From the NCBI GenBank assembly GCA_016926755.1, contig JAFGNZ010000216.1, positions 1 to 64,000 on the forward strand: 64,000 nt of DNA. Reading direction: 5' to 3'. Positions 9,767 through 40,400 of the stretch are shown one piece after another. Position 1 is the first letter of the stretch. Each line of letters begins with the position of its first letter. A model generated the notes under the pieces. It saw only the letters and a list, made by a program, of their open reading frames with translations. It ran no database searches and was not told the DNA's origin. The position numbers were made by a program, and so were the translations under genes. The stretch comes from Myxococcaceae bacterium. Its GTDB lineage: Bacteria > Myxococcota > Myxococcia > Myxococcales > Myxococcaceae.

Positions 9767-11103
9767 CGTACGAAGAGTGGAACGCTAGCGACGAGTTCAA
9801 GCTCAAGCTCTACATCGCGGACGATGAGGCCGCGAAGCAGGAGCGCGCGCTGGAGAGTCTGCTAGAGATCTTCGAACACCAGCAGGGCTTCCTCCTTCCC
9901 GAGAAGGTGCTGACCAGCAGGCGCCCGGCGAAATACTCCCGCGCCCAAGCCAGGAAGACTCTCGCCAAGGAGTCGGACTGGCCGCGCTACCTGTGGTTGA
10001 AGCGATACGGCTCACCCGAGATGAGTGTGTGGTTGAGTTGGAACAACCGCTGGGTACGCCTGCGCGTCATCGTCTACGTCAAGCCCCTGGCATCCCTGCG
10101 GCAGGAGGACAGCCACCTGGAGCGGGCTCAGCAGCTTGTCTCGCTGGTTCGCTCCCTCTGCACCCACTTCCCCGTGAGCTACGGCTATGCTCACAGCGAG
10201 GTGGATCTGGCCTCCTACCGCTCCTCGTACCCCGAGTCCCTCAACGACCTGGTGCCCCCGCCCTTCGTCTGCTGGCTCAATATCCTCGGCCGGGAGCTGG
10301 TGGAGGCACTCGGCCGTGCGCGGGTCCTCTCCGTGCCCGCTCACCACCTCGAGGCGCTGGACAACGGCTCCGTGCTCCTCCTCACCGGCCCCTCCATGCA
10401 GGACTTCGACTCCCACGAGGCTCGCCTCGCCCAGGCTCGCGCCTTGTGCCACCTATGCCCGGAGCTCTCCTTGCAGGAGACGCTGGAGGCTCTTCTCCAG
10501 CGCAGCCGCGTCTTCCAGCCCCTCGCCCCCTCGTTCCACCCGGATGTCGCTCCCCTTTTCCACCTCCTCAGCGGCCAGACGCTCCTCCAGGAGCGCCGGG
10601 AGCGGATGGAGCGCTTCAATGCCTTCGAGCCGCCCCCCGTCTCCGAGCGCCTCCCCGCCTCCGAGGCTCCCCCGTGTGATGTCGCGGACCCCCAGGCCGC
10701 CATCCGCCTCTACCAGGGCTTTCACGCGGAGCGCCTGAGCGCCCTGTTGCACAAGGAACTCCCCGACGTCGTGGCGCAGACGCCTGACACATTGCCCGCG
10801 GTGGATGATTACGTCACCCACAAGTCCTGGGCCTTCGCCAACCCCGATGTGCTGGAGGAGGACTGCATCCCCATGCTCGGCGGCCACCTGGGCCTGTTGC
10901 TGGTGCGCCACCTGGGCGGGCGGTGGGTGCCGCGCCAGCGCCTGGAGGAGGTCCAGGTCGTCGTCGGCACCACGGCGTGGTTGCCCTTCCTGCGCGCGCG
11001 CCACCTGCTGGAGGCGCTCTACAAGTCTCGGGACAACCTGCTGAGCTGCTCCCTCACCCAGCTCTACCTCACCGCCGCGCGAGAGGCTGCCGCCCCTTCT
11101 TGA
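9763..11103 (+). CDS. Conserved hypothetical protein, immunity-like
   Basis: A 446-residue soluble protein without signal peptide or membrane segment, started at the GTG that overlaps the stop of the upstream remnant. The middle part (VCWLNILGRELVEALG, then VLSVPAHHLEALDNGS and VLLLTGPSMQDFD) resembles the layout of myxobacterial immunity proteins of the Imm52/DUF3396 kind. There, a WLN...LG segment is followed by a GGVL-type strand. The C-terminal part (IPMLGGHLGLLLVRHLGGRW) looks like a second alpha/beta module. The family was not identified with certainty. Translational coupling to a broken gene and absence of any other partner suggest an orphan immunity protein kept after loss of its toxin. 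Confidence 0.5.
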   Translation: MTYEEWNASDEFKLKLYIADDEAAKQERALESLLEIFEHQQGFLLPEKVLTSRRPAKYSRAQARKTLAKESDWPRYLWLKRYGSPEMSVWLSWNNRWVRLRVIVYVKPLASLRQEDSHLERAQQLVSLVRSLCTHFPVSYGYAHSEVDLASYRSSYPESLNDLVPPPFVCWLNILGRELVEALGRARVLSVPAHHLEALDNGSVLLLTGPSMQDFDSHEARLAQARALCHLCPELSLQETLEALLQRSRVFQPLAPSFHPDVAPLFHLLSGQTLLQERRERMERFNAFEPPPVSERLPASEAPPCDVADPQAAIRLYQGFHAERLSALLHKELPDVVAQTPDTLPAVDDYVTHKSWAFANPDVLEEDCIPMLGGHLGLLLVRHLGGRWVPRQRLEEVQVVVGTTAWLPFLRARHLLEALYKSRDNLLSCSLTQLYLTAAREAAAPS

Positions 11104-20604: not shown

Positions 20605-22896
20605 ATGTCCTTCGAATGGAAGCTGGCCAGTCTCGATGAGCTCAAGTCCCTCCTGCTGAGCACGCCGCTCCAGGACGCGCAGATCCGTGTCAACCTCGCC
20701 ACCGCCAAGGTGGAGCAGCCGCTCAGCGTCGGCCTCGAGGCGCTCGACTTCGTGGTGGACGGGGGCGCCGAGGTCGCCATCGAGGCCTTCAACTCGCCGG
20801 GAGACGTGGACACGGAGGGCGTCGTCGGAGATGCCGCGGCCCCGCAGGACATGACGCGGCTGAGCCCGCCGCTCGTGCTCGGTGAGCAGGCGTGGCTGAA
20901 GTACGCCGTCCGGGCCCGCACCAAGGCCCGGGGCGGGGTGACCATCCCCTTCGTGGCCGCCGGTGCCAGCGGAGAGGTGTCGCTGCTCATGGCCGACTAC
21001 CACCCGCACCCGCTCACCGAGGATCTGCGCGACGCCCTCAACAAGGACACGAAGAACCTCCGGCTGCCCGTCGTCCTCGCGCACGTGCTGAAGCTCCAGC
21101 CGAAGGAGGCGCTGTGCTTCCAGGCCCGCATGCGCCTGGAGGCCTCGGTGAGCATGCAGTGGGGCGACGCCTTCACCTCCAACCTCAACGCCCTGAGCCG
21201 CCTGCTGCCGGGCGGCACGCTCCTGTCGCTCAAGACCACCGTGGGGGCCGCCCTCACGGGCAACGTCACCGTCTCGGACGACTTCATCGTCACCTTCTCG
21301 CGCGAGCAGCCCGGGGCCCTGGTGGTCTCCGTGCAGAAGGGCGCGGCGCGGGAGGCCAAGCTCGCCTCGGCGATCGGCGTCTCCATCGAGTCCGCCGTCG
21401 ATCCCCAGCTGTTCGGCGGGGTGCTCGATGCGATCGTCGGGTTGCCCGGCGCCACCCAGTTCGAGAAGTGGCTGGACAAGCTGGCCGCCAAGAAGCTCGG
21501 CGATGAGGAGAAGAAGCTGCTGCGGCTGACGCTCGACCGGCTCGGCCTGTCACACCACGAGGCCGACGCGGTCGCCCTCAAGACGGTCTGGGAGGAGCAG
21601 AAGGCGAAGACACGGCAGGCGCTCGTCGGGCTGGCCGCGGAGAAGATCTCCGCCGGGTTCCAGTACGAGTATGCCCGGCTGTCCGAGCGGCAGACCCTGG
21701 CGCGGCTGGAGCTGCCCGACGCGCAGGTGAAGAAGCTCCACACCCCGCTGCTGATGGGGCGGCTGGCCCACGTCCTCAAGCAGGTGGACCCGAGCATGGT
21801 GCGCAGCTACTTCCACCAGGACACCAAGATGGTGAGCGAGGCGTGGGGCTTCGCGCTGGGCTTCTCGAAGTGGCAGCTGGTCCAGAGCCTGGGCCAGAAG
21901 AAGCTCCACCGCGTGGCGCAGTACGGCTCGCCGGACCACGTCCACGGCCCGCGGCGCTACGCCTTCCTGGGCGTGCGCAGCTACGAGGGCGGCCTCTTCC
22001 AGGGCAAGGGCGGCTGGTCCATCGACTTCAAGTGCGACATGGACGAGTTCCGGCCGCAGCCCACCGTCCGCGACTTCAACTACGGGCTCTACCTGCAGAT
22101 CCACCGCAACGGGAAGCTCACCGACGCCACGCTGCGCCAGGTGATCGACGAGGCCATCGTCTGGCACGTGCTGGATGACGCGGACGAGGAGCAGGTGGTC
22201 GCGCAGATCAAGGAGGCCACCAAGGGCCAGAAGGTGGACGTCCGCCTGGAGGTGAAGCTGGCGGATCCGCTGATCCGCGAGCTCATGCCCCTGGTGGCGC
22301 TGGGCCAGCCGGAGCTGTTCGCCCAGGCGCTGGCGCGCGCCATGCCGTGGGACACGAGCAGCGCCCGGGCCAACCCCGAGTTCCGTCAGCGCGTGTACGC
22401 GCCCCTGTGGAACTCCTACCTCCAGGAGAAGGCCAAGGACTGGACGCCCCAGCGGGCCGCGCAGCGAGCGGCGGCGTGGCTCAAGCAGGATCCCATCGCC
22501 AAGGGCGTGGGCGCGGCGGTGGCCTACTGGGAGGGCGAGGGCACGGCGCGGCCCAACACCTTCGCGGACGTGCTGGACAAGAACGCGCGGCACGCGGACA
22601 TCGGCGGCCAGTACGGCGGCACGTACGTGCGGTGGCAGCGGCTGGTGGCCGGCATGGCGCAGCTGCGGGACGGGCTCCAGCAGGGAAGGGATCCCGGCAT
22701 CATCGAGAGCGTGTTCGAGGAGCTGGAGGAGTTCTGGCGCCTGTCCTTCCATGTGAAGGCGTTCGGCGCGCTCCTGCTCGGGCTGTCCATGAAGACCGTC
22801 CAGGGCCTCCAGGCCGTGGAGCGCACGCTCACCGTCGTGGCACCCGCGGACGAGCCGAAGACTCAGCTCGTCTTCACCTCTTCACGCGAGGGGTGA
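20605..22896 (+). CDS. Large hypothetical protein (763 residues)
   Basis: I do not recognise this protein. It starts MSFEWKLASLDELKSLLLST after a GAGG ribosome site and has no signal peptide, transmembrane segment or obvious catalytic motif. The first ~300 residues look beta-rich with alternating hydrophobics. Residues ~300-400 are helical and charged (KAKTRQALVGLAAEKISAGF). A distinctive middle part reads WGFALGFSKWQLVQSLG then YAFLGVRSYEGGLFQGKGGW. The C-terminal ~200 residues are helical with many Trp and Gln. Base composition and codon use match its neighbours, so it is not obviously acquired. The gene stands alone, 99 bases after the glucokinase stop and convergent with the Cys-rich peptide genes. 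Confidence 0.7.
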   Translation: MSFEWKLASLDELKSLLLSTPLQDAQIRVNLATAKVEQPLSVGLEALDFVVDGGAEVAIEAFNSPGDVDTEGVVGDAAAPQDMTRLSPPLVLGEQAWLKYAVRARTKARGGVTIPFVAAGASGEVSLLMADYHPHPLTEDLRDALNKDTKNLRLPVVLAHVLKLQPKEALCFQARMRLEASVSMQWGDAFTSNLNALSRLLPGGTLLSLKTTVGAALTGNVTVSDDFIVTFSREQPGALVVSVQKGAAREAKLASAIGVSIESAVDPQLFGGVLDAIVGLPGATQFEKWLDKLAAKKLGDEEKKLLRLTLDRLGLSHHEADAVALKTVWEEQKAKTRQALVGLAAEKISAGFQYEYARLSERQTLARLELPDAQVKKLHTPLLMGRLAHVLKQVDPSMVRSYFHQDTKMVSEAWGFALGFSKWQLVQSLGQKKLHRVAQYGSPDHVHGPRRYAFLGVRSYEGGLFQGKGGWSIDFKCDMDEFRPQPTVRDFNYGLYLQIHRNGKLTDATLRQVIDEAIVWHVLDDADEEQVVAQIKEATKGQKVDVRLEVKLADPLIRELMPLVALGQPELFAQALARAMPWDTSSARANPEFRQRVYAPLWNSYLQEKAKDWTPQRAAQRAAAWLKQDPIAKGVGAAVAYWEGEGTARPNTFADVLDKNARHADIGGQYGGTYVRWQRLVAGMAQLRDGLQQGRDPGIIESVFEELEEFWRLSFHVKAFGALLLGLSMKTVQGLQAVERTLTVVAPADEPKTQLVFTSSREG

Positions 22897-22915
22897 GGCG
22901 CTCCCTGAGTACAAC

Positions 22916-22966
22916 CCCGCCGCCAGGTCGCCCGCGCTGCTCGAGCGGGGCCGGCGTGGCGGCGGG
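22916..22966. terminator. Strong hairpin between converging genes
   Basis: CCCGCCGCCA (22916-22925) and TGGCGGCGGG (22957-22966) form a perfect 10-bp stem around a GC-rich interior that can fold further. It lies between the stop of the 763-residue protein and that of the first small peptide gene, so it may serve as a bidirectional terminator. Confidence 0.55.
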
Positions 22967-22980
22967 CCTTCAAGTGGACC

Positions 22981-23145
22981 TCAGCAGCTGAAGCTGCACA
23001 CAGCCCAGCACCGGTCGTCGAGGTCGTCGCAGCTCGAGCAGCAGGGCCGAGCCACCGTCTCCTCGCTCCCCAGGGTGGCGGAGGCCATTGCCGCCGCGGC
23101 GCCCAGCGCAAAGCCGATGAGTCCAATCTTCAAGAGCTTCTTCAT
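22981..23145 (-). CDS. Small secreted Cys-rich peptide A (54 residues)
   Basis: The peptide begins MKKLLKIGLIGFALGAAAAM, a classical signal peptide with a likely cleavage after the ASA near residue 23. The mature part contains TLGSEETVARPCCSSC and ends DDRCWAVCSFSC. Cysteines at 35, 36, 39, 46, 50 and 54 form successive CX3C motifs. The ribosome site is GGAG about ten bases before the ATG, the same as in the paralogue upstream. It is shorter than the neighbouring copy by one 21-residue Cys unit. Function is unknown; a disulphide-stapled helical peptide in the periplasm or outside the cell is likely. Confidence 0.75.
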   Translation of the reverse strand: MKKLLKIGLIGFALGAAAAMASATLGSEETVARPCCSSCDDLDDRCWAVCSFSC

Positions 23146-23241
23146 GTGATTTTTCTCCAGATGAGACGAGTGGCTCGTGACACGGGAGAGAGCCCCGAGG
23201 TGCGCCCTCCCGGCTTCAGGATAGCGGGCCTTCAGCGGACC

Positions 23242-23469
23242 TCAGCAGCTGAAGCTGCACCAGCGGTAGCACGAGGCGGTCTGAGTGTCGCACTGGGTGG
23301 CACACGCTTCGGTGCCGCCGCACGAGTTGAAACAGCTCTCCCAGGCGCTGTCGCAGCTCGAGCAGCAGGGCCGAGCCACCGTCTCCTCGCTGCCCAGGGT
23401 GGCGGAGGCCACTCCCGCCGAGGCGCCCAGCGCAAAGCCGATGAGTCCAATCTTCAAGAGCTTCTTCAT
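23242..23469 (-). CDS. Small secreted Cys-rich peptide B (75 residues)
   Basis: A paralogue of peptide A with a nearly identical signal peptide (MKKLLKIGLIGFALGASAGV) and the same start of the mature chain up to CCSSCD. It then has the extra segment SAWESCFNSCGGTEACATQC before DTQTASCYRWCSFSC. Cysteines fall at 35, 36, 39, 46, 50, 56, 60, 67, 71 and 75, giving CX3C pairs at 35-39, 46-50, 56-60, 67-71 and 71-75. This resembles twin-CX3C helical hairpins, in which helices are stapled by disulphides. The ribosome site GGAGGA precedes the ATG. It is divergent from a signal peptidase gene 121 bases away. Function unknown. Confidence 0.8.
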   Translation of the reverse strand: MKKLLKIGLIGFALGASAGVASATLGSEETVARPCCSSCDSAWESCFNSCGGTEACATQCDTQTASCYRWCSFSC

Positions 23470-23590
23470 GTGATTTTCCTCCAGATGAGACGAGCAGTTC
23501 GAGACACGGGGGAGAGCCCCGATGCGCTCCCTCCCGGCTCCAGGATAGAAGACCCGGAGTGAAACTAGAATACTGAGAGAGAGCGTGAAG

Positions 23591-24157
23591 ATGGGGCAGG
23601 CACAGGGGCCATCCAGTCAGGGGAGAAATATCCGCCTGTGGAGGCCACCGGGGTGGCTCGTGGCCACGGTTGCGTTCGGGGCGCTGGTGCTGTTGCTGCG
23701 CGGCTTCGTCTTCGAGCCTCGACTCATCGTCTCGAGCTCGATGGCGCCCACGCTGCTCCCCGGAGATCGGCTGGTGATGGACAAGCTGTCCTACCGGTTC
23801 CACCTTCCTCGGGCCGGGGACATCATCGTGTTCGCGCTGCCGCCCCAGGCCTTGAGGGCCGGTGAGCCGCGGCAGCCGGCCGCCCTCAAGCGAGTGATTG
23901 CGCTGCCCGGCCAGCGGGTGGAGATCCGCGACGGACAGGTGCTCGTGGATGGGCAGCCGCTGCACGAGCCCTATCTCGAGGAAGCGCCGCGCTACACCAC
24001 GGGCCCGATCCACGTGCCCGAGGGGATGCTCTTCGTCCTCGGGGACAACCGTAACGCCAGCAGCGACTCCCACGACTGGGGCTTGCTGCCCGCGCGCAAC
24101 GTCCGCGGCCGGGCCTGGCTGCGCTTCTGGCCGACGAGCCGGGCCGGCGGCCTCTGA
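23591..24157 (+). CDS. lepB: signal peptidase I
   Basis: A 188-residue type I signal peptidase anchored by one N-terminal transmembrane helix (about residues 22-38), with the active site in the periplasm. The catalytic Ser (50) is in SSSMAPTLLPGDRLVMDK and the catalytic Lys (100) in ALKRVIALPGQRVEI. The family block LGDNRNASSDSHDWGLLP follows. It is short compared with the two-helix Escherichia enzyme but normal for many bacteria. An in-frame GTG at 23585 is an alternative start; the ATG at 23591 has better spacing from GAGAGAG. It faces two tandem secreted-peptide genes across a short shared region, so a processing link is possible but unproven. Confidence 0.9.
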   Translation: MGQAQGPSSQGRNIRLWRPPGWLVATVAFGALVLLLRGFVFEPRLIVSSSMAPTLLPGDRLVMDKLSYRFHLPRAGDIIVFALPPQALRAGEPRQPAALKRVIALPGQRVEIRDGQVLVDGQPLHEPYLEEAPRYTTGPIHVPEGMLFVLGDNRNASSDSHDWGLLPARNVRGRAWLRFWPTSRAGGL

Positions 24158-24268
24158 GCGGTACGAGAGAGAAAAACAGGGGAGCAAAGTCTTGCGGGTC
24201 CAGGTGAGCGGGGACAGGATGCCCGCCGTTTTCCCTCAAACCGTCACCACTCCGAGAAGGAGGAACGC

Positions 24269-39803: not shown

Positions 39804-40400
39804 ATGAAGATGCGTTGGATGGCAGTCGCGGTGATCGCCCTCATGGCTTCGGCGTGCGGCGGCGTGGAGGACGAGTCCACCGATACGCAGGCCGTGGACA
39901 CGGTCAGCGCCGCGGGCATCGGCTCTGAGACCGAGCTCGCCAGCGGTGGCCCCTGCGGCTCCAATTACTGTGGCAAGGGCACGTTTTGCTGCAACCCGGG
40001 ATGTGGCGTCTGCGCGCCCCTGGGTGGTGGATGTCCGGACGTCATGTGCAACGTGACGGAGACGCCGGAGGAGCCCTCCAGCGCCGCGGCCCTCGGCTCC
40101 GAGACCGAGCTCGCCAGCGGTGGCCCCTGTGGCTCCAACTACTGTGGCGCGGGCACGTTCTGCTGCAACCCGAGCTGTGGCGTCTGCGCGCCTCTGGGCG
40201 GTGGGTGTCTGGACGTGGTGTGCGACGTGGCGCAGGTGGCGCCGGAGGAGTCCCAGAAGGCCGCGGTGCAGCAGGCCCCGGAGGAGTCCCTCAGCACCTC
40301 GTGTGGCGGTGTGGTGTGCGGCGCTGGCACCTACTGCTGCAACCCGAGCTGCGGCATCTGCGCTCCGAAGGGCGCGTCCTGCATCGACATCGCGTGCTGA
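39804..40400 (+). CDS. Lipoprotein with three eight-cysteine modules
   Basis: A 198-residue predicted lipoprotein: the signal peptide ends in LMASACGG (Cys 18). Three modules follow with exactly the same cysteine spacing, C-x4-C-x5-CC-x3-C-x2-C-x6-C-x4-C, at residues 51-82, 109-140 and 167-198. Modules 1 and 2 are also nearly identical in flanking sequence (GSETELASGGPCGSNYCG), while module 3 has diverged. The CGxGTFCCNPxCGxCAP text suggests a small disulphide knot. Linkers between modules are Glu/Ala/Pro-rich. Function is unknown; adhesion, inhibition or matrix roles are possible for exported knots. It converges with the tolC-like gene over a strong hairpin. Confidence 0.8.
   Translation: MKMRWMAVAVIALMASACGGVEDESTDTQAVDTVSAAGIGSETELASGGPCGSNYCGKGTFCCNPGCGVCAPLGGGCPDVMCNVTETPEEPSSAAALGSETELASGGPCGSNYCGAGTFCCNPSCGVCAPLGGGCLDVVCDVAQVAPEESQKAAVQQAPEESLSTSCGGVVCGAGTYCCNPSCGICAPKGASCIDIAC
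39921..40223 (+). repeat. Coding tandem repeat (modules 1 and 2 of the Cys-rich lipoprotein)
   Basis: The segments 39921-40049 and 40095-40223 encode GSETELASGGPCG... through the eighth cysteine and are almost identical at DNA level, so this is a recent internal duplication. A third, diverged unit lies at 40302-40397. Confidence 0.8.

Follow-up and report, generated by a model that had tools for sequence, protein, structure and literature searches.

What are two very small, cysteine-rich, apparently exported peptides doing beside an enzyme that might process them? The question is raised by a locus of a Myxococcaceae bacterium (assembly GCA_016926755.1, contig JAFGNZ010000216.1), of which positions 1 to 64,000, hereafter the window, were analyzed. 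A preliminary description had drawn attention to tandem genes for secreted peptides built on CX3C pairs and had proposed a new family of exported peptides, perhaps signals, toxins, or metal binders. We confirmed the observation, and its interpretation as a whole was partly supported. An adjacent signal peptidase I, overlooked in that description, gives the best indication of how the peptides are produced. We favor, with a probability of about one half, the reading that the peptides are exported effectors, used in antagonism or recognition and processed by a dedicated signal peptidase; what they act on is the least certain part of it. This reading is built on the genes and their family, their linkage to and co-occurrence with the enzyme, an even and subset-consistent set of cysteines, a contrast in rates of change, and a predicted fold.

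Both peptide genes lie on the minus strand. The long one (23242..23469), an open reading frame (ORF) with homologues, encodes a precursor of 75 amino acids (aa) with ten cysteines, at residues 35, 36, 39, 46, 50, 56, 60, 67, 71, and 75; this 75-aa numbering is used throughout. Its predicted signal peptide, or leader (residues 1 to 32, 23374..23469), ends in a TLGSEETVA conserved in alignment A1, and cleavage at the putative site there would release a mature peptide of 43 aa (23245..23373). The short gene (22981..23145) encodes a precursor of 54 aa, the length already described, with six cysteines, and its mature part of 22 aa (22984..23049) is predicted from homology to the long form to carry three disulfides. 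Short forms of similar type also adjoin the enzyme at two other loci, L184 and L194 (L and G numbers are our labels for loci and genomes). GGAG or GGAGG stands 8 to 9 nucleotides (nt) upstream of each ATG (for the long form, GGAGG at 23478-23482, minus strand), making plausible ribosome-binding sites. That the paralogues have leader DNA in common was borne out: a direct repeat of 199 nt, 93% identical between its copies, spans the leader and upstream DNA of the short gene (23026..23224) and of the long gene (23350..23548), and a second common block, of 27 nt at 96%, encodes the CSFSC end of both peptides. The reported numbers of CX3C pairs, five for the long peptide and three for the short one, were likewise confirmed when overlapping pairs are counted. 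The 21-residue unit said to separate the two forms stands as a length difference of 21 but not as a clean insertion, since the stretch from CCSSCD to CSFSC is divergent. No lipobox precedes the cysteines in the sequence, and a lipoprotein identity was rejected.

A profile (A1) built from 16 family members was searched in 195 Myxococcota genomes and matched 46 of them at E <= 1e-3. The set analyzed below comprises 55 peptides at E <= 1e-8 from 25 genomes of one myxobacterial family, drawn from the window and 45 further regions (46 stretches in all); it leaves out weaker matches, and with them 21 of the 46 matched genomes. One of those left out is an L203 peptide (10521-10886, E = 7e-4, 11 cysteines as called). 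The search for homologues with conserved cysteines thus returned the same spacing in 25 genomes, beyond chance. No Pfam or NCBIfam family matched the peptides at cut-off, and these results support the earlier suggestion of a new exported family. The long peptide had no match in the plasmid and phage collections, and a literature search, to which subscription papers were outside scope and in which another name is possible, found no paper that describes the family or that pairs a peptidase with peptides of this kind. Several variants often occur in one genome, with four in G000 and three each in G140, G135, and G153. The genome that holds the window has four peptides at E < 1e-12 (two at the locus, one on contig C245, and one on contig C75), and their leader is present there only on these four CX3C peptides. 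An EE leader is defined here as one with [GD]xEE[TA] before the first cysteine; peptides with other leaders include tandem arrays in G029, G045, and G052. In L170, L171, and L172 (G029, G052, and G045, respectively), eight-cysteine tandem arrays and a four-cysteine minimal form a few kilobases (kb) away were seen with no dedicated peptidase. A 236-codon frame in L019 (G007, 1372-2082) has a CX3C-rich stretch of similar pattern and, after it, a thrombospondin type 3 repeat (PF02412, E = 2e-7); the cysteine ladder may thus also be built into larger exported proteins as a domain.

Divergent from the peptide genes, with 115 nt between start codons, is the plus-strand gene of the enzyme (23585..24157), which encodes 190 aa from a GTG at 23585, an ATG at 23591 also being possible. 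The product matched PF10502 (E = 1.3e-45) and TIGR02227 (E = 4.4e-40; 137 bits versus a cut-off of 47). All 16 intact dedicated enzymes have the S-M-x-P motif with the catalytic Ser, and 14 of the 16 have [IL]KRV.AL with the catalytic Lys (L190 has VKRV, and L174 fails the pattern). Profiles and catalytic motifs together assign the predicted enzyme to signal peptidase I (S26), and cleavage of EE leaders is its probable role.

The link between peptide and enzyme holds in both directions. Among 59 genomes of the same family, all strong peptide matches (E < 1e-12) adjoin peptidases that belong to one subfamily. In the reverse search, all eight peptidase matches at E < 1e-20 adjoin a peptide, one of these pairs (G039) being decayed. 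A profile of eight dedicated peptidases, applied to the 195 genomes at E <= 1e-30, gave 18 loci; one (G075, from another family) is an ordinary distant peptidase, which leaves 17 in the family. An intact peptide gene stands beside the enzyme at 14 of these 17. At one, in G039, a truncated enzyme lies beside a decayed peptide, and at the last two (G140 C1:4827963 and G135 C236) no peptide was found within 1.5 kb, nor at E <= 1e-8 in regions of 19.0 and 13.0 kb, respectively, around these lone enzymes. Both genomes carry EE-leader peptides elsewhere, some beside enzyme relics, as at L173 and L203 and, in the form of a partial match, at L227. Of the 14 intact pairs, nine are divergent (the window, L174, L178, L181, L182, L183, L184, L190, and L194), three convergent (L187, L188, and L192), and two on the same strand (L189 and L191). 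Since arrangements differ, adjacency has been kept through rearrangement. Leader type and enzyme also agree by genome: the enzyme occurs in 13 of 13 genomes with EE leaders and in none of 12 with other leaders (Fisher p = 1.9e-7).

These counts bear on one alternative, that the enzyme is a neighbor by descent and an ordinary signal peptidase cuts the peptides. The two orphan enzymes, those peptides of G140, G135, and G153 that have no intact enzyme beside them, and the enzyme-less g12 arrays would all fit it. The persistence of adjacency under varying orientation, the perfect match between leader type and enzyme by genome, and the constraint on the enzyme (0.33; see below) argue against it, and we consider it very improbable.

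The cysteines themselves are informative about what the mature peptide becomes. Their standard spacing, 1,3,7,4,(5-9),4,7,4,4, is symmetrical about the tip loop. Departures occur at the 60-67 gap, which is 4 in L183 and L203, and at the 46-50 gap, which is 5-6 in L178, L181, and L182; L227, L228, L230, L231, L180, and L197 are also off the standard. L227 and L228 (both G140) are two more EE-leader peptides with compressed cysteine spacing, one of them beside a partial peptidase, and they suggest that the ladder tolerates shortening of both arms. Mature parts have 10, 8, 6, or 4 cysteines, and an automatic count gave an even number for 54 of 55; in the single odd case, L199, the start was set too early and a signal-peptide cysteine was included. 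Particular positions are missing together: 50 and 56 in the g12 arrays; 46, 50, 56, and 60, judged by spacing, in the short forms; and 35 and 75 in L196, L226, and L199. L170, L171, and L172 have only 39, 46, 60, and 67. For the short form, the last cysteines were assigned to 67, 71, and 75 because they are spaced 4,4 and because the DNA of the final block is conserved. Only one of the 945 possible pairings of ten cysteines fits all subsets, the fully nested one: 35-75, 36-71, 39-67, 46-60, and 50-56.

The mature long peptide, modeled alone and without relatives, was predicted by AlphaFold2 to form two antiparallel helices (model residues 2-17 and 22-42), with a mean predicted local distance difference test (pLDDT) of 87.9 and a predicted template modeling score (pTM) of 0.58. 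For the 54-aa precursor, the prediction was of low quality (mean pLDDT 57.3), and that model was not used. Cysteine subsets and model together support a predicted antiparallel helical hairpin zipped by nested disulfides, in line with the disulfide-stapled helices suggested in the preliminary description. The predicted fold had no match in a viral structure library at E <= 0.001.

An even cysteine number and pairs lost together point to disulfides rather than metal binding, and they weigh on the idea of a vanabin-like metal-binding or redox peptide. High cysteine content would agree with that idea, as would a structural match to vanabin2 (1vfi) that is weak (Foldseek E = 8.3, Z = 3.1), but two middling matches among helical hairpins carry little meaning, and alignment A1 has no conserved non-cysteine ligand position. 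We regard such a function as quite improbable; metal binding, one of the three roles first offered, has no positive sign beyond the cysteines themselves, and a mature part that varies under a conserved leader inclines us toward an outward effector. Loss of cysteines in pairs also counts against a ribosomally synthesized and post-translationally modified peptide (RiPP) precursor, with cysteines modified, for example, by a radical S-adenosylmethionine (SAM) enzyme. Two of the 16 members weakly match TIGR04117, the Cys-Xaa-Xaa-Xaa repeat radical SAM target (best E = 0.027). The leader, however, is of the standard Sec type, and no modifying or radical SAM enzyme recurs beside the module in neighbor clustering, where neighbors were not each scanned with Pfam. 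A RiPP precursor is extremely improbable.

Small disulfide-rich peptides of several kinds are known, and the present family appears to be a variant of them that sequence criteria set apart from defensins and alpha-hairpinins: a family of cystine-ladder peptides with a dedicated peptidase. The bacterial cis-defensins of classes I-V (xanthusin and corallosin among them) are described in PMC11561630 as small, secreted, and disulfide-rich, many of them myxobacterial, with a cysteine-stabilized alpha-beta (CS-alpha-beta) fold and a GXC gamma-core. Our peptides are likewise small and, by prediction, secreted and disulfide-rich, with an all-helical model instead of CS-alpha-beta. By the criterion in PMC11561630, applied as a simplified regular expression, none of the 55 mature parts has the CXC or CX3C...GXC...CXC framework, and a defensin identity was rejected. 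Plant alpha-hairpinins have, according to PMC11591084, a CX3C-Xn-CX3C helix-loop-helix with disulfides. The corresponding CX3C-X4-20-CX3C (4C) motif occurs in 31 of 55 members, including the long form but not the short. CCxxC is present in 49 of 55, whereas a CC next to the core is excluded by the same paper (PMC11591084), and a plain alpha-hairpinin identity was also rejected. Alpha-hairpinins have two or three disulfides, versus up to five predicted here, and are from plants rather than bacteria. Cerebratulus neurotoxin B-IV (1vib) is a disulfide-linked helical hairpin, as is predicted for the long peptide; its profile match (E = 0.72) and its structural match (Foldseek template modeling score 0.59, E = 9.5, Z = 2.1) were both non-significant. 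It is an animal toxin with fewer cysteines, and there is no sign of common descent with the cysteine-ladder peptides.

Which parts of the module change, and how fast, was estimated from five independent pairs of enzyme-linked loci, with shared cysteines removed from the mature sites. The per-site ratio of replacement to silent change (pN/pS) was 0.19 for the leader, 0.33 for the enzyme, and 1.57 for non-cysteine mature sites. Replacement and silent changes numbered 63:11 in the mature part versus 8:17 in the leader (Fisher p = 1.4e-6), and the mature part also differed from the enzyme (p = 6e-7). Compared with leader and enzyme, the mature part has much more freedom to change, and its cysteines are retained. 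It is this combination of a fixed leader, a fixed enzyme, and a changing mature part that leads us to the effector reading, since fast variation around a constant skeleton is frequent in weapons and recognition molecules.

We propose a module of two parts: one or more small precursors, with a signal peptide ending in the conserved xGSEE[TA]xA and a mature part of about 22-45 residues, and a dedicated signal peptidase I of the cyanobacterial type. The Sec system would export the precursor, and the dedicated peptidase would recognize the EE-type leader and cut just before the cysteine-rich part. In the periplasm, the peptide would oxidize to a compact hairpin of two antiparallel helices zipped by nested disulfides, which would then leave the cell and act on another cell in antagonism or recognition. 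Action on another cell would explain why surface residues change fast and scaffold, leader, and enzyme stay.

Two other readings concern the role of the peptide. The first takes the product to be an intraspecies signal or kin-recognition peptide, its mature part read by a matching, co-diverging receptor of the same species. The several variants per genome and the patchy presence of peptide and intact enzyme together (13 of 195 Myxococcota genomes) suit it, as do the same diversification data; no receptor or sensor gene is common to the module loci, only peptide and enzyme being shared across genera in the component list from clustering. We think this reading possible but unlikely. The second holds that the peptide is a structural component, belonging to the matrix, the envelope, or the spore coat. 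It has a precedent in Bacillus subtilis, where, according to PMC6173796, SipW is a signal peptidase I dedicated to the matrix proteins TapA and TasA of neighboring genes. The present enzyme resembles SipW, as described there, in its apparent dedication to the products of neighboring genes, and differs in being of the cyanobacterial type and in having small cysteine-ladder peptides rather than matrix proteins as its apparent substrates. A structural part would be expected to be conserved, whereas the mature part is not conserved and the module is present in only 13 of 195 genomes; this role is distinctly unlikely.

Several points weigh against the effector reading that we prefer. No immunity gene or exporter is linked to the module. 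Mature enzyme-linked peptides are mostly acidic, unlike usual antimicrobial peptides, and for that reason they are unlikely to lyse membranes as cationic peptides do. The excess of pN/pS over 1 was not significant (p = 0.08, or 0.053 with the g12 arrays included), and relaxed constraint outside the cysteines, in place of positive selection, might account for it. Further pairs, with cysteines included, ranged from ~0.5 to above 1, and two enzyme-less groups (L179/L185 and L180/L197) have strongly conserved mature parts, at 0.09. The g12 arrays make similar peptides without a dedicated enzyme, so the fold does not require it. Finally, the EE-leader motif was defined after the sequences had been seen.

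If the effector reading is correct, the module would be a bacterial model, open to experiment, of a signal peptidase I specialized for one peptide family. Its leader motif could be tested for substrate choice, and the disulfides of its scaffold could be read from the cysteines that members have naturally lost. Predatory social bacteria, whose exported effectors and recognition molecules attract interest, would also gain a class of exported peptides that are small, change fast, and are easily missed.

The origin of the enzyme was examined in a tree built by maximum likelihood from 121 peptidases, namely 16 dedicated enzymes, 24 others of the myxobacterial family, and 81 more. The outgroup consisted of the 80 most similar among the matches listed, chosen by similarity and not evenly sampled. 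The 16 dedicated enzymes group together (support 100/99), beside 25 sequences that are mostly cyanobacterial (96/88) and inside a wider cyanobacterial set (94/85), and the other signal peptidases of the myxobacterial family are placed apart. A cyanobacterial donor is our best guess, and only a guess because the outgroup was picked by similarity among the matches listed. No peptide of the family adjoins any of the 80 outgroup loci (the best profile match, E = 0.0047, was not a signal-bearing peptide on inspection), and the pairing of peptide and enzyme therefore seems to have arisen in myxobacteria.

How the module came to its present place was addressed in seven genomes of the genus, all of which have a gene for a 763-aa protein upstream of the site and a sugar-binding gene downstream. 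The module occupies the site only here; the site holds 242 nt in G131, ~1.8 kb with a 512-codon ORF in G053, and three other genes over ~3.5 kb in the remaining four genomes. The peptide and enzyme profiles had no match in the six other gaps of the genus (best E = 0.61). The comparison suggests that the module was gained at this site, which speaks for the effector reading, and the intergenic site between the 763-aa and sugar-binding genes looks as if it were a favored insertion site. Across genera, only peptide and enzyme recur as a rule among the loci in neighbor clustering; with no other neighbor recurring, the module stands by itself and is found in various places.

A broader view, which we offer tentatively and hold to be doubtful, is that of a portable cassette akin to venom-peptide evolution, in which a captured cyanobacterial peptidase and a cystine-ladder scaffold would reach new sites and acquire new mature peptides on a fixed leader and ladder. 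Conotoxin superfamilies combine a conserved leader and a fixed cysteine framework with a hypervariable mature part. The pattern here is similar; these peptides are bacterial and short, and have no homology to conotoxins.

Three observations on the window and its surroundings complete the account. A small cysteine-containing, lipoprotein-like ORF of 198 aa (39804-40400) had no Pfam family above cut-off. When the site (22897-24268) was compared with L252-L257, the cargo of the four genomes with ~3.5 kb was seen to consist of a LysR-like gene, an epimerase-like gene, and a third gene (names assigned by eye). The 763-aa protein upstream (20605-22896) had no Pfam match at E <= 0.01 and is 63-71% conserved in the six other genomes of the genus.
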